The position numbers and the translations under genes are program-made. The notes beneath the pieces are model-generated. The model was given only the letters and a program-made list of their open reading frames with translations, was not told the DNA's origin and did no database searches. A stretch of DNA of 64,000 bases from Agathobaculum butyriciproducens. Its GTDB lineage: Bacteria; Bacillota; Clostridia; Oscillospirales; Butyricicoccaceae. The stretch covers positions 75,068 to 139,067 of the forward strand of contig QEKJ01000003.1 in NCBI GenBank assembly GCA_003096535.1, in the 5' to 3' direction. Shown here piece by piece: positions 1 to 9,008 of the stretch (positions within the stretch are counted from its first letter, which is position 1; each line of letters opens with the position of its first letter).

Positions 1-1
1 G

Positions 2-619
2 CCGATCAAGCAGTGGAGTTGGCCGGAACCGCCGGATGACAATGCGTTCACGAACTATGGCTCGCTGGATGAGTTTGTAGCGAATAATTCGCAGAAGGTG
101 TTCCGCATTGTTGACTGCAATAAAGAAGCACAGGACTGTCCCTGCATAATCTATGGTCGCCTGAGTACGATGATAGAGCTGGCAGATAAAGGCGCTCTGT
201 TGGGCATTCAGGTGCTGCAGGAGAGCGATGATGGAAAGCTGTATGATACGGATACGCTGGAATACTACAAACTCAATGAGATCCGCCTGACAAGCTGCAA
301 AGAAGACATGACACGACATTGTACTGATGAAGCTGCTGAGCGGATAGTCAATTATACATGGAATACGTATGGTTCGTTCAGTAGATTTGCAGAGAAGAAC
401 AAAGACAAGATGTTCCGTGTGCTTGTAAAGCCGGAGTTCTGCGGCGATGTCCCGGAAGACAGCTTTGATGCAAGACGCTGTAAGATGTCTTCTGTTGTAA
501 CGCTGCCGGATGATGATGTCCTTATTGGGTTGCGGATGCTTGATACTGCGCAGGTGGAATACCGGAAACTGAGCGAGGTTCATCTGCAGTGTCGTGCAGA
601 CGATAATCAGCCTGAGTGA
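2..619 (+). CDS. Unknown two-repeat protein, 5' end outside window
   Basis: The frame is open from the first bases of the window, so the true start lies upstream; the related copy at 6831-7238 shows what the missing N-terminus looks like. I do not recognise the family. The visible 205 residues contain two related units of about 80 residues: each begins with a YGS.. F motif (NYGSLDEF / TYGSFSRF), continues F-R-(I/V)-(V/L) and ends EY.KL.E(I/V).L. No membrane segment or signal peptide is seen. A hairpin terminator of the opposite strand follows the stop. The 114 nt at 2-115 are identical to 7041-7154, so this gene has been partly duplicated at the other edge of the accessory region. Function unknown. 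Confidence 0.7.
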   Translation, partial: PIKQWSWPEPPDDNAFTNYGSLDEFVANNSQKVFRIVDCNKEAQDCPCIIYGRLSTMIELADKGALLGIQVLQESDDGKLYDTDTLEYYKLNEIRLTSCKEDMTRHCTDEAAERIVNYTWNTYGSFSRFAEKNKDKMFRVLVKPEFCGDVPEDSFDARRCKMSSVVTLPDDDVLIGLRMLDTAQVEYRKLSEVHLQCRADDNQPE

Positions 620-635
620 TTGGGCAAAAAGAAAA

Positions 636-658
636 CCTCTGCTCATATTGAGCAGAGG
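636..658 (-). terminator. Intrinsic terminator, minus strand
   Basis: A perfect 10-bp stem (CCTCTGCTCA / TGAGCAGAGG) with a 3-nt loop is followed on the minus strand by a T-rich run. It would end a transcript coming from about 830, i.e. the small minus-strand frames at 671-806, and could also slow transcripts of the plus-strand gene ending at 619. Confidence 0.6.
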
Positions 659-670
659 AATAGGAAAGGT

Positions 671-806
671 TTAATGCATTGCGGACTCTATGCGATCCAT
701 ATAAGGGCCTAACAGCATGTTGAATTTCTGGTAATCAGATTCCATAATTCTATTGTTTAAATGATGTTAAGCCGTTATCTTCGGGTTGTACGCTGACTAA
801 AACCAT
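671..806 (-). pseudogene. Very small minus-strand frame(s), possibly one broken small gene
   Basis: An excellent ribosome site (CAGGAGGT) lies 7 nt before an ATG at 806 that opens an 18-codon frame ending in TAG at 750-752. Four bases later, in the +1 frame, an ATG at 745 opens a 24-codon frame (MESDYQKFN..., stop 671-673) that ends 13 nt before the terminator at 636-658. Ribosome site, two frames and terminator make a compact transcription unit. Either these are two tiny peptides or a single ~45-residue protein broken by a frameshift. No family recognised. Confidence 0.35.
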
Positions 807-1096
807 ATTTGATACCTCCTGATTATTATCTCACAATGTAGTAGCTTTTTGTAATTATAGCATTTTAAGAGGAAAATATGGCAATTTGGCGCAACGTTGC
901 TGATGAGAAATTAGCAACCGCAAAAAGTTGCAAACACTTGAAAGCAAACTTTCAAGTAACTTACAAGTAGTTTCAAGTAGAAGCTGCTTTCCGCCAATGA
1001 CTTGCATTGGCTTCGATAAAGAAATGAAGATGAAATGCTGTTACTCGCCCTCAGATGTGATAAGAGGGCGAGTATCAGGACGTATGAAAAAACTAA

Positions 1097-1273
1097 TCAC
1101 CAAAGACCAACATACCTACTTCCTGCGTCAACGCCAAGGGTAATCGGCTGTTTGTATCCTGCACTACCGTGCAGGAGCTTAATGGTAAACGGTGTGCGCT
1201 TTGCTACGCACGCTTTCTTATTGTTCAACAATGTACGAGCCTTGCGTGATGAGCATGGCATCAAGGGCTCGCC
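1097..1273 (-). pseudogene. iscB: IscB N-terminal remnant
   Basis: Reading the minus strand from 1273 gives GEPLMPCSSRKAR, then VAKRTPFTIKLL, then PITLGVDAGSRYVGL and a TGA at 1097-1099. This is the N-terminal PLMP domain and RuvC-I strand (GVDAGS, with the catalytic Asp) of IscB, the IS200/IS605-borne RNA-guided nuclease ancestral to Cas9. A TAG sits just before GEPL, and everything after RuvC-I (bridge helix, HNH, RuvC-II/III) is missing, so the gene is a dead fragment of about 58 codons out of roughly 400-500. Downstream on the minus strand a 9-bp hairpin (1046-1074 area) follows. The HEARO/omega RNA region lies directly upstream, as expected for IscB loci. Confidence 0.75.
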
Positions 1274-1284
1274 CTAAAAACTAG

Positions 1285-1560
1285 CAGCTAAGAAGAAGCC
1301 GCTCTCCTCAAAAGAGGAGTCGAAATCCTTACCCAAGGTTGCAAGCGGTTTATTCAGCCACACCTGTCGGCCTTACCTTAGCTTTACGTGATGTGTTGTC
1401 TTAGAGCGCACAGTTAGGATTAACGCCATGCGGTAACTATCTATTCGCGAGCAACGGGGCACCTCTTACGGTGCATAGGGTAGTCAATGCACTCTTGCGA
1501 GCATGCCTAAAATCTGAGCTCGTTTGCACAAGCCCGTGACTTCAGTCATGGGTCATTGAC
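1285..1560 (-). ncRNA. HEARO / omega RNA and transposon left end of the IscB element
   Basis: IscB guides are encoded immediately 5' of iscB and begin at the transposon left end. Here the minus strand from about 1560 starts with a hairpin (CCCATGACT..AGTCACGGG, 1529-1550) typical of IS200/IS605 ends and continues for ~270 nt of hairpin-rich non-coding sequence up to the iscB fragment, including GAGGAG..CTCCTC-type pairs near 1303-1320. The position, size and end hairpin fit a HEARO RNA. If intact, the guide would correspond to DNA just outside the end, at about 1561-1580. I cannot fold it here, so boundaries are approximate. Confidence 0.55.
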
Positions 1561-1563
1561 TGC

Positions 1564-1764
1564 TTATATGGGCATCGGAACCCGAGCGCATAGAATCATA
1601 GCAATAATACAAATCAGTATAGTCACTATAAGAATAATGCATGCAATCTCAATTTTGTATTCTTCTTTGTGCAGCTTGAATGCTGCAATGAGAACGATTG
1701 CACTTACAAGTGCGATAATAGCTATTCCTTTCCATAACCATGAAAGTTCATGTATTAACTGCAT
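1564..1764 (-). CDS. Small two-helix membrane protein
   Basis: A 66-residue protein starting MQLIHELSW with an AAAGGAAG ribosome site a few bases upstream. Two hydrophobic segments are evident, about residues 13-30 (GIAIIALVSAIVLIAAF) and 42-60 (ACIILIVTILICIIAMIL), separated by a charged loop (KLHKEEYKIE). It lies between the IscB element end and the I-E-like repeats; its reading frame could be extended upstream through the repeats, but that extension is only translated repeat sequence and I do not accept it. Function unknown; holin/toxin-like small membrane proteins are possible. Confidence 0.55.
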   Translation of the reverse strand: MQLIHELSWLWKGIAIIALVSAIVLIAAFKLHKEEYKIEIACIILIVTILICIIAMILCARVPMPI

Positions 1765-1789
1765 TGGGTCACTTCCTTTCTGGAATTTG

Positions 1790-1982
1790 GGATCACCCCC
1801 ACGTGTGTGGGGAAATGTCGAAAAATATTGAAAGTCCCAGGGATCACCCCCACGTGTGTGGGGAAAAGGACGCGCTGGGAATGACTTTTCCAGCGGCCAC
1901 CCCCACGTGTGTGGGGAAAAGCACATGTCACACCGTGTCATGGTTTCTACGTTGGGATCACCCCCACGTGTGTGGGGAAAAG
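1790..1982 (-). CRISPR. Orphan type I-E-like mini CRISPR array (4 repeats)
   Basis: Four 28-nt repeats at 1790-1817, 1841-1868, 1894-1921 and 1955-1982 share the core CACCCCCACGTGTGTGGGG; the first differs at its end (AAATG) and the third at its first bases. The reverse complement ends in GTGATCC like I-E repeats, so the array probably reads on the minus strand with a leader at about 1983-2100. The inner stem CCCCAC/GTGGGG is intact. Spacers are 33 nt (1922-1954), 25 nt (1869-1893) and 23 nt (1818-1840): only the leader-proximal one has the usual I-E length near 32-33. No cas genes are nearby. Confidence 0.8.
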
Positions 1983-2051
1983 ACTTAAAGATATCCGAAA
2001 AGCATTGCATAATCCTCAAATATACAGTTGTCCGCATTCGCCATCTACATT

Positions 2052-2142
2052 TATAAATACCAAAGAAATGATTTTTGTAGCGCAAAAAAAACTAATTTTC
2101 ATAAAAAACTCCACCTAACCGCAAGGGGTATAGATGGAGTAA
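2052..2142 (-). repeat. ~90-bp repeat carrying a terminator (copy 1)
   Basis: This stretch matches 2728-2815 almost throughout, from TATAAATACCAAAG to GATGGAGTAAG. Its 3' part on the minus strand is an intrinsic terminator: a stem ACTCCA/TGGAGT at 2108-2140 with a GC-rich inner part followed by a T run. It lies 40 bp after the stop of the RnlB-like gene, which it probably terminates. Confidence 0.7.
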
Positions 2143-2180
2143 GTTTTGTCAAGAGTAAGAATCAAAAGTTTTACCATTAT

Positions 2181-2528
2181 TTATGCATTTGTGAGTAAAT
2201 ACTTGGTTGCTGATGGCAATGAGCTTTGTTGAATAACTTCTTTATGCGTCTTAAAATATTTTTCGCTTATCTCAAGTATACTTGTAGGAACGTCAGATAT
2301 AATCTTAATAGTTTTTGCTTGCAATCGGTGACTCTCTACTGTTACTTGAATAAATCTATTGAAGTTTATTCCATTAATTACAGCAAGGTCAAATATAACA
2401 TTCCCATTTTCAATAAACGAAACATCTCCATCGCATAGCAAATCGTTTATGGGGTTTTCACATGTGTTAGCAATCACCAAAAAACAATCTTGCAAACTAT
2501 CAACTTTCAAAACGTTATATTTTCTCAT
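2181..2528 (-). CDS. rnlB: RnlB-family antitoxin (orphan)
   Basis: A 115-residue protein with a very strong ribosome site (GGAGGTGAGG) before the ATG at 2528. The stretch VIFDLAVINGINFNRF followed by VTVESHRLQ, TIKII and DVPTSIL matches, in order and spacing, the FDLLCANG..WNRF, TAKII and DVPTHIL blocks I remember from E. coli RnlB, the antitoxin that blocks the RNase LS toxin RnlA. Length also agrees (about 120). In known systems rnlA lies directly upstream, but here only a 39-codon coding scrap (2565-2684) is found, so the antitoxin appears solitary. A terminator follows at 2108-2140. Could act as an anti-toxin against an incoming RnlA, or be a leftover. Confidence 0.7.
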   Translation of the reverse strand: MRKYNVLKVDSLQDCFLVIANTCENPINDLLCDGDVSFIENGNVIFDLAVINGINFNRFIQVTVESHRLQAKTIKIISDVPTSILEISEKYFKTHKEVIQQSSLPSATKYLLTNA

Positions 2529-2564
2529 AACCTCACCTCCTCACAGAACAATAGAATATTATAT

Positions 2565-2684
2565 TCACATTATTTTATTGTTCTTAGCTTCCATCGCCTT
2601 TTTAGCGAGAGCAAGGAAACGCATCTCCTCTATGTAATGCTCATCACCAAAGGCAAGAAGTGGGTTTGCAAGCTCACGATGTTT
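2565..2684 (-). pseudogene. C-terminal coding remnant upstream of rnlB
   Basis: Between an in-frame TAG (2685-2687) and a TGA (2565-2567) the minus strand reads 39 codons with protein-like content, including ELANPLLAFGDEHYIEEM and LALAKKAMEAKNN. No good start or ribosome site is present, and the frame continues sensibly upstream of the TAG (SLERL). It looks like the 3' end of a deleted gene whose stop lies 36 bp before the rnlB start; the position would suit a toxin gene, but the sequence does not resemble the RnlA C-terminus I remember. Family not recognised. Confidence 0.4.
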
Positions 2685-2727
2685 CTAAAGCCGCTCTAAA
2701 GAATTGTCGTTATTCCGTATATGTCTA

Positions 2728-2815
2728 TATAAATACCAAAGAAATGATTTTTGTAGCGCAAAAAACAAATTTTATAAAAAAACTCCATCTAACCGCAAGG
2801 GTACAGATGGAGTAA
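2728..2815 (-). repeat. ~90-bp repeat carrying a terminator (copy 2)
   Basis: Second copy of the element at 2052-2142. The terminator stem ACTCCATCT/AGATGGAGT occupies 2782-2813 and is followed on the minus strand by seven T residues. It begins 24 bp after the stop of the HicB-like gene at 2837. Two unrelated genes therefore share one near-identical terminator block, which suggests the block moved with or recombined between gene ends. Confidence 0.7.
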
Positions 2816-2836
2816 GGATTTTTGATTGTATGGGTG

Positions 2837-3025
2837 TTAATTTGACTGAGGGATATGCAGCATTCTGGCGGTCTCAAGCCATGTTATTTCATTGGATTCC
2901 AGCTCTTTGATGGCCTCAAGGCGAGTATCTCCTTGGGCGACGCAGCCTTTCAAATGCAGGCTCTTGGCGATCCAGACACGATGCCCATTGACGCTCTCAC
3001 GGCTTATGGCGTAGGGATACAACAT
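2837..3025 (-). CDS. Short HicB-family antitoxin-like protein (orphan)
   Basis: I start this gene at the ATG at 3025, which has AAAGGAG nine bases upstream, giving 62 residues. The sequence YPYAISRE...VWIAKSLHLKGCVAQGDT..EAIKELESNE..WLETA is the HicB N-terminal fold (UPF0150): LKGCVAQGDT is its hallmark. Full-length HicB antitoxins usually carry a C-terminal DNA-binding domain and reach 100-140 residues; this one stops after the RNase H-like domain. No hicA-like toxin gene is next to it. Upstream lies the first repeat of the degenerate array (3061); downstream is a terminator (2782-2813). Confidence 0.7.
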   Translation of the reverse strand: MLYPYAISRESVNGHRVWIAKSLHLKGCVAQGDTRLEAIKELESNEITWLETARMLHIPQSN

Positions 3026-3060
3026 GAGGAACAGCTCCTTTTGAGAACAAAAATTGATAG

Positions 3061-3690
3061 AAAATAGAGGTATCTCGTTTTGCATAGGCCTCAAACAACA
3101 AATTCTGACTGCACGGCTTTGAGGTAGGTTTTGAGGTATTTCGTTTTACATAGGTCTCAAACAGCGAATAACGGGCAAACAAGAGAAAAAATGGTTTGGA
3201 GGTATCTCGTTTTTGCATAGGTCTCAAACGACTAAGATAATAATACGCAAAGCGCATTGGGCTTGGAGGTATCTCGTTTTACATAGGTCGCAAACTGGCA
3301 GTTCCAGAATCTGTTGCTAAAGCCGGTTTTAGAGGTGGGCCGTTTTACATAGGCTCAAAGATGAATGAAGAGTGTCTTTTTTTGGGGGGTATCTAATTTG
3401 TCATAGATCTAAAACAGGCAGATTGAGGAGCTGCTGGTTTAGAAATGTCTGATTTGTACAGTTTTCAAATAGGTCTCAAATCATAAAGTTTGACGTACTG
3501 CAAAGGTGCAATTTTACATAGCTCTCAAATTAGCAAGAATATCATCTGAACGAACAGTTAATTTTAGAGGTAGACAGTTTCGTATAGGCTCAAATAAACT
3601 GATCGACTCCATAAAGCCGTAGGGTAGCTTAACCCAATCTCAAAACAGCTTAAACCAAATTCAGCAAAACGAGGTAAATCAGGACTCAAA
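3061..3690 (+). CRISPR. Degenerate type II-like repeat array, block A
   Basis: Repeats of about 36 nt start GTTTTAGAGG or GTTTGGAGG and end CATAGGTCTCAAAC. Positions: 3061-3096, 3128-3162, 3194-3229, 3260-3295, 3326-3360, ~3380-3415, 3437-3481 (with insertion), ~3501-3529, 3561-3595, then short or poor copies ending about 3645 and 3690. The first spacers are 30-31 nt, typical of type II; later ones shrink to ~20. GTTTTAGAG at the 5' end and CAAAC at the 3' end are the hallmark of Cas9-system repeats, but almost every copy differs in the middle. No cas gene or tracr anti-repeat was seen. Confidence 0.6.
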
Positions 3691-3699
3691 CGACCGGTC

Positions 3700-3793
3700 T
3701 ATAAACGGTGTATGCGTAGCCGATGTAGTAGAGATAGTTCGTATAAATCACCTCGGTAGATACCACGCCCCGAAAGGGGCGTGGGTAATTGAC
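3700..3793 (-). mobile_element. Possible IS200/IS605-type end fragment
   Basis: A perfect hairpin ACGCCCCGAAAGGGGCGT (about 3763-3780) is followed by GGGTAATTGAC. The IscB-element end at 1529-1560 has the same arrangement: hairpin, then GGGTCATTGAC. I read this as a second end of the same transposon class. No transposase is nearby and I could not find the partner end. Confidence 0.35.
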
Positions 3794-3818
3794 ATCTATC
3801 CTTCTTTTCTTGTTTGGA

Positions 3819-4097
3819 TTACTTTTTCGTTTGTTGCTCTACGGTCAGAATCTCCTTGAACCAAATACCGTATAGTACGATTGCTATCACCGATCCAATG
3901 ACACATGCAAGCACAATGGGGATTGTTTTCCCTTCGAGGAAGGGTAAATAGCCGGAAAATAGAGCAGGATGAGTTAAAATGTATGTTATGTAGATACCAA
4001 CAGCCGCCGGAAGAGGGCCTGCGAATATATCTCTGGTAAATAAGTATGAAAATAGAGATAGAAGTGCTTCGTTACATGTTGCATGGTTCTCAAGCAA
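3819..4097 (-). CDS. Small membrane protein, second gene of pair
   Basis: About 92 residues if the TTG at 4097 is used, but the frame is open to about 4150 (adding a hydrophobic ALLLVFTVSLLE stretch) and neither position has a convincing ribosome site, so the start is uncertain. Two hydrophobic segments are clear, around GIYITYILTHPALF and IPIVLACVIGSVIAIVLYGIWF, with a basic tail. It follows the 88-residue membrane protein on the same strand with about 20-75 bp between them and is probably co-transcribed. Function unknown. Confidence 0.45.
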   Translation of the reverse strand: MLENHATCNEALLSLFSYLFTRDIFAGPLPAAVGIYITYILTHPALFSGYLPFLEGKTIPIVLACVIGSVIAIVLYGIWFKEILTVEQQTKK

Positions 4098-4171
4098 AGA
4101 AACCGTAAAAACCAGTAGAAGCGCAGGTTTGGAGACGAAAAATCACATGATACTCAATGTCGCACGTTCGC

Positions 4172-4438
4172 TTATTTCATTCTTTGAGCGGCTGCTCGGA
4201 CAAGGATAACAAGCAGTTGAATAAGATTGCATGCTGCGCTGGCGACATACAAAGGAGCAAAGATAAATGCTCCCCAGTGGAAAAGCGTTAATACGGCAGA
4301 AAACAGGAGATTCGAGGGCCAGTATGGCACATGCAGCATCAACAGCCAACATTGCGCCCCAGCCAATGCCGATGAAAACATAACATCTTTGATTTGCAAA
4401 AGAATAGTCTGTTTGTCGATTAAGGTCTTTTGAGACAT
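4172..4438 (-). CDS. Small membrane protein, first gene of pair
   Basis: 88 residues with a good ribosome site (GGAGG, 7 nt before ATG 4438). After a polar N-terminus (MSQKTLIDKQT) two or three hydrophobic stretches follow: SALAGAQCWLLMLHV, LLFSAVLTLFHWGAFIFAPLYVAS and LIQLLVILVRAAA, ending in a basic QRMK. No family recognised. It lies inside the degenerate CRISPR-like array, in a segment bounded by 11-bp direct repeats. Confidence 0.55.
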   Translation of the reverse strand: MSQKTLIDKQTILLQIKDVMFSSALAGAQCWLLMLHVPYWPSNLLFSAVLTLFHWGAFIFAPLYVASAACNLIQLLVILVRAAAQRMK

Positions 4439-4539
4439 AAATAATCCTCCGAATTTGATTTAGAATTGGGAAAATGCAAGATTGTGCGCACAATGAGCAC
4501 AAGTTAATATCTATCCTTCAGCATTTTGAAGGCTTGTGT

Positions 4540-5088
4540 GTTTTAGAAGTAGATAATTTTGTACAGGTCTTAAACAATCACTTCCTGCGACTCGTTTGGT
4601 GACAAGTTTTAGAGGCATATAGTCTTACATAGGTTTCAAAAAGTGGAATAATAATGCAATAGATAGCTTATCGGTGATTTTACATAAGTCTCAAGCAAAT
4701 TCCCTCAGCAATCCTCTTATAGCTAAGGTTTGGAGATATCTGTTTTTACATAGGTTCCAAACTCAAACAGGGTACCCTGTAGGGAAAATAAAGGGGAATT
4801 TTCACAAAAGACTCAATTAGACGATGACGACTGTTCCGCTAGAAAAGAGGTAAGTTCAGTGACGCAAATAAGGTAGCAATGTAATAAGTAGAAAATAGAG
4901 GTATCTCGTTTTACATAGGTCTCAAACTTACTTGAGATATCGCCGGAAATGTCGATTGATTTAGAGTGTTCTGCTTGACATAGGTCTCAAACGCTTGTAT
5001 TTGGCATACTAAAAATAGAGGTATAGGATTTAATGGGCTCAAACGACCGGTCTGAACGGTAATAATAGAGGTAAATAGGCGCTCAAAA
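4540..5088 (+). CRISPR. Degenerate type II-like repeat array, block B
   Basis: Recognisable repeats: 4540-4575, 4606-4641, ~4670-4696 (5' part lost), 4728-4762, ~4790-4818 and ~4840-4880 (very poor), 4892-4927, 4958-4992, 5013-5044, 5064-5088. Several spacers are exactly 30 nt (4576-4605, 4928-4957) or 31 nt (4697-4727). The last copies are short variants missing the middle of the repeat. The segment after 5044 (GACCGGTCT..AACGG) is nearly the same as that after the short repeat ending at 3690, suggesting block duplication. Confidence 0.6.
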
Positions 5089-5114
5089 AGGAACCGTGTA
5101 AGAAGAGAAAGGTC

Positions 5115-5228
5115 TTAATCTCTCCGAGTAGCTTTGTTGTAATCAGCCTGTCCGGCCGCAATAACAGCGGTCACGCAAACAACCGTTGCGAAAAGATACA
5201 GGCCAGCAATAATGCCGACGATAAACAA
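5115..5228 (-). CDS. 37-residue single-helix membrane protein
   Basis: A TTG start at 5228 has GGAGG eight bases upstream. The product FIVGIIAGLYLFATVVCVTA is one long hydrophobic helix followed by a polar tail ending QADYNKATRRD. It is too short for usual gene finding but the ribosome site, length of the helix and basic tail are coherent. It fills a gap in the repeat array between copies at 5064-5088 and ~5268-5291. Function unknown; small toxin or phage-like peptide are options. Confidence 0.5.
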   Translation of the reverse strand: MFIVGIIAGLYLFATVVCVTAVIAAGQADYNKATRRD

Positions 5229-5267
5229 AGAAATCGCCTCCTATATATAAGGGAAAATGGTTGTGAA

Positions 5268-5476
5268 TTTACAAGGTTAAGTAACTCAAACGCGCGTAGC
5301 GGTACGGGATAGCCGCTGAAAGAGGTTTGACATAGGTCTCAAATTAAGCGCGAACCTATGTTGGAATGCCGTCGGTTTTGGAGGTAAGTGATTTTACATA
5401 GGTCTCAAACATAAAGTTACAGTTTTGCGAAAAACCTTGAGCTTTGGAAGTAAGTGATTTTACATAGGTCTCAAAC
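5268..5476 (+). CRISPR. Degenerate type II-like repeat array, block C
   Basis: A poor copy ends at 5291; then 5318-5344 (5' part lost), 5375-5410 and 5441-5476. The last two are full 36-nt copies and match each other except at the start; spacers 5345-5374 and 5411-5440 are exactly 30 nt. The block stops 3 bp before the stop codon of the next minus-strand gene. Confidence 0.65.
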
Positions 5477-5478
5477 AC

Positions 5479-5754
5479 TTAAATTTGAGGACCATACAAC
5501 CCCGTAGGATCGACGTACTTAACATCGTCATATCCCTGCTTTGCTAACTCCATTCCCAGCTTAACAGCCTTAATGAAGTCCTTTTCGTCGAACAGGTCTC
5601 GACCAATTACAGCATCCTCAGGGCATTCATTTAGATTCCATGCCGAAAACACCATATTGTCGTTCTGATCGAAAAGGGAAACGCCAACAGCAAAGTCTAA
5701 GTCGTCTGTTTGGTATTCGGCGTTAAATTGGTAGGTCTTCTTCGTCGGAATCAC
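5479..5754 (-). CDS. Acidic 91-residue protein in a spacer position
   Basis: The frame runs from a GTG at 5754 to TAA at 5479-5481. An AAGGAG lies immediately before the GTG, closer than usual, so the precise start is unsure; no ATG is available. The product is rich in Asp and Glu (TDDLDFAVGVSLFDQNDN, NECPEDAVIGRDLFDEKDF) with no membrane segment. The coding segment fits between two repeats: one ends at 5476 and the next begins at 5767, so the gene takes the place of a spacer. No family recognised. Acidity is compatible with a nucleic-acid mimic, but that is speculation. Confidence 0.55.
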   Translation of the reverse strand: MIPTKKTYQFNAEYQTDDLDFAVGVSLFDQNDNMVFSAWNLNECPEDAVIGRDLFDEKDFIKAVKLGMELAKQGYDDVKYVDPTGLYGPQI

Positions 5755-5766
5755 TCCTTGTGATGG

Positions 5767-6040
5767 AATTGAGAGATAGATAGTTTTACATAGGTCTCAA
5801 ACCGCCATTATCGAGAGGTCTGGCAATCAGTGAGTTTGGAGGTGAGTAATTTTGTATAGAACTCAAACGGGCGGTGCAGGATAGTTTTAGAGGTAGACAG
5901 TTTTGCATAGGCCTCAAACCTGATGGTCTTTATACTCGAACACCGGCAGAGGTTTGGAGGTATTTAATTTTGCATAAATCTCAAACGAGATTGTCTGTTT
6001 TTGCACAGGGCTTAACATAGGTCTCAATAGGTCTCAATCA
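5767..6040 (+). CRISPR. Degenerate type II-like repeat array, block D
   Basis: Repeats at 5767-5802, 5834-5868, 5884-5919 (a clean GTTTTAGAGG..CAAAC copy), 5952-5986 and a final deformed copy to about 6039 in which ATAGGTCTCA occurs twice. Spacers are 31, 15 and 32 nt. The stop codon of the next minus-strand gene (6038-6040) overlaps the last copy. Confidence 0.6.
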
Positions 6041-6340
6041 CATATTTTCGTGGAGACATTCATCGCCGCAATAACAACGCATCGCAAGTGTACCTTTACT
6101 ATGACGGTTGATGATTTCAAATGCCGTATGCGTGGGCATCTCTATAATCCAGAATCCATTGCGGCAATAGCTCTTCGGCGGAAGATAACCGAATTCGAAG
6201 AGATCTTATTTAATAGTCTCAACTTCAGCTTCGGAATCACACATGCTTAAAGGCCAAATGACCAGTGTGTTGCGGTTAGCGAAATTAGACTTTAGATATG
6301 AACGAAGCCTATCGTCAATGGTTACATGTTCTAATTTCAT
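6038..6340 (-). pseudogene. ~100-codon gene with one in-frame TAA
   Basis: From an ATG at 6340 (ribosome site AAGAAGG) the frame reads 44 codons (MKLEHVTIDDRLRSYLK...), meets TAA at 6206-6208, and continues in the same frame for 55 more codons (DLFEFGYLPPKSYCRNGFW..., ending CYCGDECLHENM) to TGA at 6038. Both halves look protein-like, so I read one ~100-residue gene with a nonsense codon; readthrough or two separate peptides are less likely. No family recognised. A promoter with an extended -10 lies at 6382-6409. Confidence 0.5.
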
Positions 6341-6381
6341 AATAGCCTTCTTTCTTTGAACGCAACATTTGCTTTGTAATT

Positions 6382-6409
6382 ATTATACCATATTCCGGTG
6401 AAAAAGCAA
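6382..6409 (-). promoter_or_regulatory. Sigma-A promoter, extended -10
   Basis: On the minus strand TTGCTT (6404-6409) is separated by 16 bp from TATAAT (6382-6387), which is preceded by TGG. It is 42 bp upstream of the interrupted gene at 6340. Confidence 0.6.
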
Positions 6410-6420
6410 ACAATTGTTCG

Positions 6421-6730
6421 ATGCTCGGACTTATGCAGTTTTTGCATTAGCGAAAGGGAAGTGAACTGTGATATACTACAAAATTTGCGTCAGAATCGCT
6501 AGTATGGCAGGGGACAAGTAGTTCGGAAAGAACCCCTTACTCTTGCCCGTATCGTGCCTCATACGCCGTCTACACGTCGCTGCAGCCTATTCCATTTTGC
6601 ACTTAGCAGGGTTGACATTGGTATGGTATAATGCAGGGTTTGGACTCTTTTTAGGGTGATGTTTGATGGTTTTTTAGGGTGACAAATACAAGCAGTAATA
6701 TTGTAACGCTAAAAAGTCATCAAATGACAC
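6421..6730. other. Gene-free stretch with possible structured RNA
   Basis: No reading frame here has a ribosome site. On the plus strand a TGTGATATACT -10-like sequence (6466-6476) precedes a foldable stretch: GGCAGGGG (6507-6514) can pair with CTCTTGCC (6553-6560), enclosing GTTC..GAAC, followed by CGTAT..ATACG. Another -10 (GGTATAAT, about 6632-6639) lies before the terminator at 6733-6776. A small RNA is possible; I found no anti-repeat to the degenerate CRISPR repeats here. Confidence 0.3.
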
Positions 6731-6732
6731 GA

Positions 6733-6776
6733 TAAAAAGTGTCGGTAATGAAATCCTCATTACCGGCACTTTTTTA
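6733..6776. terminator. Bidirectional intrinsic terminator
   Basis: A 17-bp stem (AAAAAGTGTCGGTAATG pairing with CATTACCGGCACTTTTT) with a short loop has A and T runs on both sides, so it can act on either strand. It separates the repeat-array region from the partial gene copy at 6831. Confidence 0.75.
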
Positions 6777-6830
6777 TTTGTCCGGGGCCAAAATAGTCCT
6801 CAAATAAGAAAGGGAAAAGAGGTGAGAAAA

Positions 6831-7238
6831 ATGAGCAAAATGGTCTATCTCCCATATGTTCATTTTGAGCAGGGAAAAGGAGAACCAAAGGGCAACGGCT
6901 GGTACTTTACGCAGTACAATGCAGAAACTGGAGAAGGTAAAGGCTGGCACGGAATAGAGTTTATGCCGGACTGTCTCTTTGAAACGAAATGTGAGGGCGG
7001 CGAACCGGAAACAAAGTTCTTTGATGTGAATACCAATGAACCGATCAAGCAGTGGAGTTGGCCGGAACCGCCGGATGACAATGCGTTCACGAACTATGGC
7101 TCGCTGGATGAGTTTGTAGCGAATAATTCGCAGAAGGTGTTCCGCATTGTTGACCTCCTCAATGAGATCCGCCTGACAAGCTGCAAAGAAGACATGGGAT
7201 ATGCGTTTTACCCCCTATCCACACCAAATTTTAAATAG
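6831..7238 (+). CDS. Rearranged partial copy of the gene at 2-619
   Basis: I choose ATG 6831 because GAGGTG lies just upstream; the frame also extends to a GTG nine bases earlier. Residues 1-70 (MSKMVYLPYVHFEQGKGE...) show the N-terminus missing from the copy at the window start; PIKQWSWPEPPDDNAF to FRIVD is identical to that copy at DNA level (7041-7154 = 2-115). Then 156 nt are missing in frame, LNEIRLTSCKEDM resumes (7158-7196 = 272-310), and the match ends abruptly, with a different tail YAFYPLSTPNFK. The product has half of the first repeat unit and none of the second, so it is probably non-functional or altered. Confidence 0.65.
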   Translation: MSKMVYLPYVHFEQGKGEPKGNGWYFTQYNAETGEGKGWHGIEFMPDCLFETKCEGGEPETKFFDVNTNEPIKQWSWPEPPDDNAFTNYGSLDEFVANNSQKVFRIVDLLNEIRLTSCKEDMGYAFYPLSTPNFK

Positions 7239-7256
7239 ACCATCTCGTCGCAAATC

Positions 7257-7290
7257 TTGACAAAATTCGCAAAAACCGATACACTATAAT
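7257..7290 (+). promoter_or_regulatory. Probable promoter of the RNA methyltransferase gene
   Basis: TTGACA (7257-7262) and TATAAT (7285-7290) are both perfect but 22 bp apart, longer than the optimal 17; a weaker -35 nearer the -10 may be used. A hairpin GGCTCC..GGAGCC followed by five T (7309-7335) lies between it and the ribosome site and could attenuate transcription. Confidence 0.4.
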
Positions 7291-7308
7291 AGTTAAAAAG
7301 GAATTTCG

Positions 7309-7335
7309 GCTCCTGCTCTGACGGCGGGAGCCTTT
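7309..7335 (+). terminator. Leader hairpin with T run (possible attenuator)
   Basis: GGCTCC pairs with GGAGCC, with further G-C pairs inside, and TTTTT follows directly. It sits in the 5' leader of the methyltransferase gene, 16 bp before its ATG, so some transcripts may stop here. Confidence 0.45.
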
Positions 7336-7350
7336 TTGGAGGAAAACCAT

Positions 7351-8535
7351 ATGCAACTCACATTATGCTGCCCGACCCTGTTCGGGCTGGAGGGCATCGT
7401 CGCGGACGAGCTGCGCTTCGGCGGCAGGCTGACCGACGTACACGCGGAAAACGGTCGCGTGCTGTTCACCGGTGACGAGAACACGCTCGCATGGGCGAAC
7501 CTGAACCTGCGGTGCGCCGAGCGCGTGCTCATCCGTATCGGCACATTCAAAGCCAAAACGTTCGATCAGCTGTTCGAGGGCGTAAAAGCACTCCCGTGGG
7601 AGCAGTTCATTCCGGCGGACGGCGCATTTCCGGTCAAGGGTCACAGTCTGGACTCGGCTTTGCACTCGATTCCGGACTGCCAGAAGATCATCAAAAAGGC
7701 AGTCGTATCGCGCCTGGGCGCAAAGTACGGTCAAACCTGGTTTGACGAGATCGGCGGAAAGTATCAGATTCAGTTCGCCATCATGCACGACGTAGCCGAG
7801 CTGTACCTCGATACCTCGGGTGCCGGTCTGCACAAGCGCGGCTACCGCGCCAACAGCAACGCGGCGCCGCTCCGTGAGACGCTGGCGGCGGCTATGGTCA
7901 AGCTGGCGCGCTGGCGCGGACGCGACCCGTTCCTCGACCCGTTCTGCGGCTCGGGCACGATTGCGATTGAGGCGGCCATGATCGCGCAGCGCCGTGCGCC
8001 CGGTCTGCTGCGCCGCTTTGATGCGGAGAAGTGGAGCTGCTTTGACAAGTCGGTCTGGCAGCAGGCGCGCGAGAGTGCGCTCGACCTTGCCCAGCCGGAC
8101 GCTAAATTCGATATCGTCGGCAGCGACATCGATCCGGACTGCGTGCAGCTGTCCATCGAGAACGCGCGCAAGGCCGGTGTAGCCAACACGGTGTTTTTCG
8201 AGCGCGCGGACGCGACCAAGCGCGATTACAGCAATGTGGGCGTACTGTTTGCCAATCCGCCGTACGGTGAGCGTTTGCTGGACTTGCAGCAGGCGGAAAA
8301 GCTGTACGCCGACCTCGGCCGAGCGACAAAAAACAGTCCGATGAAGCAGTATCTGCTTAGTTCGGACCCGCTGTTCGAACGTTGCTACGGCCGCAAGGCG
8401 GATAAGCGCCGCAAGCTGTATAACGGCATGATCAAGTGCGAGCTGCATATGTATTTTAAAGACCCGTCTGCATCGAACAGGGGAGAGAATAAGCACTCCG
8501 ACCGACCGTCTGCTAAACGGCCGGCAAAACGCTGA
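7351..8535 (+). CDS. THUMP-domain SAM-dependent RNA N2-guanosine methyltransferase (RlmL/YpsC family)
   Basis: 394 residues from ATG 7351, which has GGAGG 9 nt upstream. The N-terminal ~150 residues match the ferredoxin-like/THUMP RNA-binding part (LTLCCPTLFGLEGIVADELR). The methyltransferase domain has motif I DPFCGSGTIAIEAAM (about residue 190) and the catalytic NPPYGERL motif IV (about residue 300). This family modifies guanosine in 23S rRNA (RlmL, m2G2445) in the cytoplasm; the length equals the single-enzyme YpsC type, not the RlmKL fusion. The tail (SNRGENKHSDRPSAKRPAKR) is basic and probably disordered. Stand-alone gene followed by groESL. Confidence 0.9.
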   Translation: MQLTLCCPTLFGLEGIVADELRFGGRLTDVHAENGRVLFTGDENTLAWANLNLRCAERVLIRIGTFKAKTFDQLFEGVKALPWEQFIPADGAFPVKGHSLDSALHSIPDCQKIIKKAVVSRLGAKYGQTWFDEIGGKYQIQFAIMHDVAELYLDTSGAGLHKRGYRANSNAAPLRETLAAAMVKLARWRGRDPFLDPFCGSGTIAIEAAMIAQRRAPGLLRRFDAEKWSCFDKSVWQQARESALDLAQPDAKFDIVGSDIDPDCVQLSIENARKAGVANTVFFERADATKRDYSNVGVLFANPPYGERLLDLQQAEKLYADLGRATKNSPMKQYLLSSDPLFERCYGRKADKRRKLYNGMIKCELHMYFKDPSASNRGENKHSDRPSAKRPAKR

Positions 8536-8598
8536 GCGCTATAGGGCACTGTTCATAATTTGTTCAGAAAATTTTTGTGAAAATTCCGGATTACCCCC

Positions 8599-8665
8599 TT
8601 GCATATTGCGGCTCCTTGGTGTAAGATAATACTCGAAGTTAGCACTCGGGTAATTTGAGTGCTAA
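8599..8665 (+). promoter_or_regulatory. groESL promoter and CIRCE operator
   Basis: TTGCAT (8599-8604), a 17-bp spacer and TAAGAT (8622-8627) form the promoter. Directly after it, TTAGCACTC-N9-GAGTGCTAA (8639-8665) is a perfect CIRCE element, the binding site of the heat-shock repressor HrcA. This predicts induction of groESL by heat or protein-folding stress. hrcA itself is not in the window. Confidence 0.95.
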
Positions 8666-8697
8666 CCCCCAACATTGTAAAATCTTATTTTTCATAG

Positions 8698-8994
<297 letters not shown>

Positions 8995-9008
8995 TTTTCA
9001 GGAGGTAA

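Follow-up and report, generated by a model that had tools for sequence, protein, structure and literature searches.

A gene-interrupted, unevenly decayed type II-A-like CRISPR array in Agathobaculum butyriciproducens, whose genome also encodes a Cas9 without RuvC catalytic residues

The 64,000-nucleotide (nt) stretch of the Agathobaculum butyriciproducens genome analyzed here (the window; C3:75068-139067 in a 2.8-Mb assembly of 57 contigs, 99.7% complete) contains near its start a degenerate array of clustered regularly interspaced short palindromic repeats (CRISPR), among which several small genes are found. Positions without a contig name refer to the window. The following features were mapped in the array region, with E values of repeats taken from nhmmer profile searches and lengths of open reading frames (ORFs) given in amino acids (aa).

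3061-3594: block A, profile hits on the plus strand, nine repeats starting at 3061, 3127, 3193, 3260, 3326, 3380, 3436, 3495 and 3561 (E 1.6e-10 to 1.6e-4)
3619-3752: highly degenerate repeat remnants behind block A, recognized by eye, of which the profile search picks up 3681-3691 alone (E 2.7)
3819-4097, minus strand: small ORF encoding 92 aa, with a product that looks membrane-like by eye
4172-4438, minus strand: small ORF encoding 88 aa, preceded by GGAGG; its product, too, looks membrane-like by eye
4540-4762: block B, four repeats starting at 4540, 4606, 4661 and 4727 (E 2.8e-8 to 2.8e-4)
4892-4992: repeat pair starting at 4892 and 4957 (E 5.5e-11 and 7.9e-5); in the 4957 copy just 18 nt fit the profile
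5014-5087: shortened repeat remnants around GACCGGTCTGAACGGT, recognized by eye; in the profile search only 5066-5077 (E 28)
5115-5231, minus strand: small hydrophobic open frame of 38 codons, whose possible TTG start is preceded by AGGAGG
5292-5321: putative spacer with a partial match to an SLH-domain gene of the same genome
5309-5476: block C, three repeats starting at 5309 (one half lost), 5375 and 5441 (E 4.1e-5, 5.4e-11 and 3.8e-10)
5479-5754, minus strand: small ORF, 91 aa, phage-like
5767-5986: block D, four repeats starting at 5767, 5833, 5884 and 5951 (E 2e-10 to 2.3e-7)
6015-6037: tail-only repeat remnants (E 0.0055 and 0.2)
6038-6202, minus strand: open frame ending at the array edge

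An initial annotation, made from the sequence alone, had described about 25 copies of a 36-nt repeat over 3 kb, and these proved to form a real array. A repeat profile, seeded with 13 hand-picked copies and iterated on positions 1-9000, recovered 22 copies of the 36-nt repeat between 3061 and 5986, all on the plus strand (E <= 1e-3), as opposed to none at the same threshold in 20 dinucleotide shuffles of that sequence. At E <= 1, the profile matched neither positions 9001-64000 nor any of 18 further genome stretches, and its top match beyond the array in the first 9 kb was 6835-6853 on the minus strand (E 0.06). Scoring the window against the repeat consensus revealed a period of 66 nt between copies. 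With repeat bounds placed by hand, 13 of the 21 distances between successive repeat ends were 64-67 nt, and the 17 gaps shorter than 60 nt measured 29-31 nt in 12 instances and 14-20 nt in the other 5, which bears out the 30-31 nt spacing read initially; the first four spacers of block A are each 30 nt long. Direct repeats of about 36 nt separated by spacers of about 30 nt correspond to the geometry of a type II-A array. The mean pairwise identity of the repeat, however, was 0.66 over 21 copies, not the near-identity expected of such an array, and fits a decayed array only.

Four longer gaps of 945, 129, 316 and 290 nt separate the remaining repeats, and the ORFs at 3819, 4172, 5115 and 5479 occupy three of them, in agreement with the reported interruption of the array by small minus-strand genes. 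By eye, an additional repeat-30 nt-repeat unit lies between the genes at 3819 and 4172; a repeat finder matched part of it (4076-4098, 78%), while the repeat profile gave nothing there even at E <= 100. The gene at 5479 does fill the space between two repeats, its ends lying two bases from the repeat ending at 5476 and 12 bases from the one starting at 5767. The frame at 6038, which had been described as overlapping a repeat with its stop codon, indeed lies at repeat sequence but adjoins only the weak remnants at 6015-6037; it was read without an initial start codon, and the adjacent upstream ORF (6206-6340) is in a different frame. Genes ending within three bases of repeats had been considered hard to explain by decay, but this nearness is unremarkable because repeats fill over half of the DNA there.

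To place the repeat, we used relatives of a 339-aa Cas9 frame from contig C10 of the same genome (see below), which were found in 21 other genomes of 394; 20 of the loci were fetched. An array was present at 16 of the 20 (at one of them just as a 20-nt core), and of the four loci without an array two were stretches of 6 kb or less. The related II-A arrays have a period of about 66 nt (64-68 in the spacings inspected), and their GTTTGAGA...TGT repeats share the strand of cas9 at 16 of 16 loci. Like these arrays, whose repeats are exemplified by GTTTGAGAGTAGTGTAATTTCATAAGGTAGTAAAAC, the window array has a 36-nt repeat, spacers of about 30 nt and GTTT/AAAC ends, and on its minus strand the repeat also has GTTTGAGA and TGTAA; it differs at positions 9-12 of the minus strand, where CCTA stands for GTAG. 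When aligned with 15 related repeats, the window repeat reached a mean score of 22.3 of 36 (plus strand) or 20.2 of 36 (minus strand), compared with 13.8 (standard deviation [sd], 1.5) for shuffles, a result that is ambiguous as to strand since the near-palindromic repeat ends produce likeness on either one. From sequence comparison, the II-A-like character of the array appears well supported. Unlike its relatives, the window array has no cas genes or matching trans-activating CRISPR RNA (tracrRNA) that we could find, its copies are 9-27% off the consensus, and genes stand among its repeats. A search of related genomes for the same repeat, as had been proposed initially, came back empty: at up to 3 mismatches, the window repeat was found neither in 86 further genomes of the family nor in 393 of the order (overlapping samples), and exact copies of its 19-nt tail occurred elsewhere only at four single sites that are not arrays.

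The repeats had been described as differing in the middle. A few middle positions do vary, but so does one end, whereas the last 19 nt (plus strand) are far better kept, and this patterned unevenness of decay had been missed. In 14 gap-free copies, the last 19 nt contained 25 mismatches in 266 positions (9%) and the other 17 nt contained 65 in 238 (27%), a contrast (Fisher 1.9e-7) that none of 20,000 within-copy permutations reached. The set of 21 copies agreed, with 88% conservation in the 19-nt part, 50% in the middle five positions and 71% at the other end (column heterogeneity P 1e-13). Outside the 19-nt part, the block TACCTC was kept, and positions 20, 21, 23, 24, 31, 35 and 36 (minus-strand numbering) varied. 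Adjacent repeats were not clearly more alike than random pairs (P 0.24, 0.09 and 0.45).

The meaning of this pattern depends on the strand that was transcribed. On the minus strand, every repeat begins with GTTTGAGACCTATGTAAAA, the presumed handle of the CRISPR RNA (crRNA) that pairs with tracrRNA, and the well-kept 19 nt become the first 19 nt of the repeat; mature II-A crRNAs retain about 19 nt of the repeat. In favor of this strand, the first 19 nt agree with the relatives at 12.9 of 19 positions, as against 10.8 of 19 on the plus strand, and the relatives' repeats, too, are better kept in their first 19 nt (0.96 versus 0.83). Transcription of the minus strand is thereby favored, not proven, as the two strands nearly tie in homology. 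If it was this strand that was transcribed, conservation falls on the crRNA handle, and the array may therefore have stayed in use after its growth stopped. The kept part would then be a measurable footprint by which arrays that are frozen but used could be separated from dead ones in any genome.

We next consider the machinery that such an array would need. Cas1 was not found by a Pfam search of the genome, the control search being positive in 9 of 14 genomes, and a Cas9 model detected three loci (C5:36559-39552, C5:61933-63303 and C10:20297-22108), none of them on contig C3. A Cas9 or Cas1 cognate to the array was thus not found; cas2 and csn2 were not searched for. Likewise, no tracrRNA core (a AAGTTNAAATAAG-like sequence) behind an anti-repeat that fits turned up in the window or anywhere on contig C3, the only core match in the window being at chance level. 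Two candidate tracrRNAs inside the array, at 3650-3795 and 5015-5115, were rejected (fold z of -2.2 and -0.6, respectively).

Of a large SpCas9-like protein, the locus on C10 encodes the front part, broken over frames (PDB E 2.5e-35 for the 339-aa frame), with an integrase-like ORF, named by eye, adjoining its end and no array found nearby. It retains a II-A tracrRNA with anti-repeat, CAAGTTCAAATAAG and hairpins, an element recognized by eye in 15 of 16 relatives as well, and this tracrRNA forms duplexes of -30.0 and -34.1 kcal/mol with the repeats of two relatives. The window repeat reaches only -12.1 (minus) or -13.0 (plus) kcal/mol with it, which makes the array a doubtful partner of the broken Cas9. 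A role of the array as a guide store for the Cas9 on C5 was rejected, since its duplex with the C5 tracrRNA amounts to -7.5 kcal/mol compared with -8.2 (sd, 2.6) for shuffles.

Among the spacers, one match to the genome itself stands out. Positions 5292-5316 match one of its SLH-domain surface-protein genes at 24 of 25 nt (C14:66143-66167; BLAST E 0.0023 against the own genome), with 14 nt unbroken beside the repeat remnant; the bounds of this putative spacer, 5292-5321, rest on two assumptions, a remnant that ends at 5291 (by eye and by repeat finder, 71%) and the loss of 13 nt from the following repeat. A second self-target at 5044-5060 (17 nt; matches on C1 and C23 in genes that are SLH-type by eye) was not used, given its E values of 2.3 and 8. 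The genome yields 99 SLH-domain matches and thus has a large set of surface proteins, one member of which is encoded beside the RuvC-inactive Cas9 described below.

Only one small ORF of the array, 5479-5754, has traceable kin. It matches PHROG 19569 (E 1.3e-4) and is 54% identical over 48 aa to an 80-aa frame of a 52.8-kb viral contig whose gene neighborhood looks phage-like by eye. A search with the ORF itself gave no match among phage records; in the search of phage and plasmid records made for the spacers, the sole match, a 25-nt stretch found in 4 phage records (E 0.07), is located within this ORF; DNA searches of phages and plasmids with the whole region gave nothing useful. The frames at 3819, 4172 and 5115 had weak matches at most in Pfam, PHROGs, NCBIfam and PADLOC. 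For ORF 3819-4097, there was no Pfam family and no plasmid match, only PHROG and NCBIfam matches at E 0.1 and 0.064, and the ORF may be 5'-truncated because its TTG start falls in a repeat-like stretch. ORF 4172-4438 had no family in the four libraries and no relative in viral contigs, and frame 5115-5231 matched only PHROGs, and weakly (E 0.036 and 0.36). The small genes have no family in common, and no relatives with these genes in another order were found. They look like later insertions into useless DNA, for which no new mechanism is needed.

Collectively, the array is a real one, modestly unusual and of a known kind: gene-interrupted, II-A-like and unevenly decayed, with its effector not found. 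CRISPR arrays that are orphaned or degenerate and lack cas genes are a known category, and the window array resembles them in its decayed repeats and in having no adaptation genes, whereas it departs from them in that decay spared one part of the repeat and several genes were inserted. Of the two explanations offered initially, a dead type II-like array that took insertions provides the best fit, given the II-A geometry and repeat likeness, the absence of Cas1 and the failure to find a cognate effector or tracrRNA. We propose, with a probability of about 0.65, that the array is the relic of a II-A-like array that was frozen but used for a time, then became inert and then received gene inserts. 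In the order of events that we infer, the array would once have carried some 20 or more 30-nt guides. The handle and the 6-nt block TACCTC would have been constrained while other positions drifted, that is, crRNAs would have been used after growth had ended. The adaptation genes, the effector and the matching tracrRNA would have been lost; within the limits of the tests made, none of them remains, so that in all likelihood the array no longer functions. Some small genes, including at least one that is phage-like, may then have entered among the repeats, presumably because nothing there was under selection.

Several observations weigh against this proposal. If the plus strand is the right one, conservation does not fall on the handle and support for a frozen-but-used phase is lost, and ungapped comparison of the full repeat fits the relatives slightly better on the plus strand (22.1 versus 20.1 of 36). 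The 14 gap-free copies were hand-picked, 8 of the 22 having been omitted for gaps or lost halves. No intact array with the window repeat was found in the genomes searched, and the 16 II-A tracrRNAs paired with the window repeat at means of -13.6 (plus) and -10.7 (minus) kcal/mol, close to the shuffled value of -11.9 (sd, 1.6), although the relatives' own repeat/tracrRNA pairs reach -30 to -47 in the same comparison. A cognate tracrRNA could lie on other contigs, most of which were not scanned. Finally, the spacers, whose comparison with phage and plasmid sequences had been suggested initially, had no match at E <= 1 among 50,697 phage and 72,556 plasmid records and so lend no support to immune use.

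The main rival to the frozen-but-used reading is plain decay since the loss of the cas genes, with the uneven pattern stemming from a repeat that was already mixed in the active array or from chance history. This is a possible course of events, if clearly the less probable one. The middle variants TATCTCG, AAGTGA and GACAG recur in several copies, as they would in a mixed array, and the transcribed strand is not settled. However, copying during growth should cluster such variants, and they are not clustered by neighborhood (P 0.24 and 0.45); moreover, 12 of the 17 short gaps have stayed at 29-31 nt, though some middle positions mismatch the consensus in at least half of the copies. That the array still works as a frozen set of guides through a tracrRNA and an effector that we did not find, perhaps regulating SLH surface-protein genes of the host, is improbable. 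The 19 constrained nt and the putative guide against one gene of the large SLH set would suit such a role, but neither tracrRNA in the genome pairs with the window repeat, contig C3 has no tracrRNA core with a fitting anti-repeat, and several copies have lost half of the repeat. The other initial explanation, a cassette array using CRISPR-like repeats as recombination sites, is very unlikely: one gene does fill a repeat-to-repeat gap (5477-5766) nearly exactly and the named ORFs all lie on one strand, but most gaps hold spacer-sized DNA instead of genes, the genes share no family, the repeat was seen in no other genome searched, and no recombinase, as an integron-like cassette system would have, was recognized among the ORFs read or scanned around the small genes.

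The part of this genome most worth an experiment lies on contig C5. A solitary type II-C Cas9 gene (C5:36517-39600, equal to L013:8518-11604; 1028 aa as translated, 1016 aa from the ATG) is flanked by an SLH-protein gene on one side and, by eye, sugar-transferase-like genes on the other, with no array found beside it. In the PDB, it is matched best by Cas9 chains 1082-1095 aa long (E 1.9e-92), which we take to be GeoCas9. Alignment with seven II-C relatives from the order showed that all RuvC catalytic residues (D, E, H and D) are gone: Y replaces the D present in all 6 relatives having that part, S replaces the E of all 7, and DSAGQA replaces the HHxxDA motif of all 7. The HNH residues D, H and N are retained (VDHIIPYSDCYDHSYNNLV), as they are in a paralogue 22 kb off (C5:61885-63354, equal to L014:13886-15355) that comprises only the HNH and C-terminal half, is 66% identical and has 500 open codons with no start codon seen near its front; it is perhaps a truncated gene. 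The paralogue also lacks the third RuvC motif but has other residues there (EPAANA), so the RuvC loss may have been one event or two. Over 490 codons, the two copies differ by a dN of 0.26 and a saturated dS of 3.3 (NG86 only), which points to a long period of purifying selection on the protein that probably, but not with certainty, followed the RuvC loss. Relatives beyond about 42% identity were absent from the family and order samples, plasmids, phages and viral contigs, the last of these yielding no relatives at all. By its residues, this protein is a natural RuvC-inactive, HNH-intact Cas9, predicted not to pair with the window's array and probably acting as a nickase or a binder.

Upstream of this cas9 lies a tracrRNA-like gene with a fold z of -3.1, a terminator-like site and the promoter-like pattern TTGCAA-N17-TATACT, in the same layout as in the relatives' loci L065 and L066. 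Downstream and convergent with cas9, we identified a single repeat-like, crRNA-like unit with TTGCAA-N18-TATACT and no terminator-like site found behind it. Each of the two patterns, which were chosen post hoc, has a single occurrence in 20 kb (0.00 and 0.01 by chance), while promoter scans alone gave about as many sites as in shuffles (1 versus 0.8 and 0.5). The repeat/anti-repeat duplex amounts to -34.7 kcal/mol, compared with -13.3 (sd, 3.0) for shuffles. With some 20 nt between the -10 box and the repeat, the guide would have to be short, and no target scoring above shuffled guides was found in 322,620 searched bases of the genome.

Two known systems invite comparison. The Cas9 of Francisella novicida retains both nuclease sites, unlike the C5 Cas9, in which the RuvC residues are missing; TldRs are not Cas9 proteins and originated as nuclease-dead TnpB-like proteins. 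Known from sequence alone, the C5 Cas9 would resemble TldR as an RNA-guided protein that has lost a nuclease site and adjoins a surface-protein gene, whereas regulation by TldR has been experimentally shown (PMC13418256). The C5 locus likewise resembles the scaRNA/Cas9 system of F. novicida, in which, as a 2020 review describes, a crRNA-like RNA and a tracrRNA steer binding instead of cutting, cutting being avoided by partial complementarity (PMC6990116). Tentatively, and by analogy with TldR, the genome may have dropped adaptation and kept guided DNA binding, with the C5 Cas9, its tracrRNA and one short-guide crRNA forming a domesticated regulator or site-specific nicker; the window array could have gone through a comparable frozen, non-adaptive phase before its own effector was lost. 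A natural Cas9 without RuvC residues would be the Cas9 counterpart of non-cutting RNA-guided regulators, and we found none described in the part of the literature that was checked. The same review proposed that more regulatory systems could be discovered by screening for CRISPR-Cas systems whose nucleases are inactive (PMC6990116).

Other repeats and genes were observed around the array. Positions 1787-1989 hold four copies containing CACCCCCACGTGTGTGGGGAAA, 51-61 nt apart, which resemble type I-E repeats; two copies of another repeat of this sort lie at C5:63475-63590, in a genome without a detected Cas1. A gene of the RnlB antitoxin family is encoded near the array on the minus strand (2181-2528; Pfam E 4.9e-19), and an 86-nt direct repeat (2021-2106 and 2697-2782; 74% alike) lies outside the array. 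The array region is bracketed by an identical 114-nt direct repeat (2-115 and 7041-7154) located within two related-looking ORFs, and a further 39 nt are identical between 272-310 and 7158-7196.

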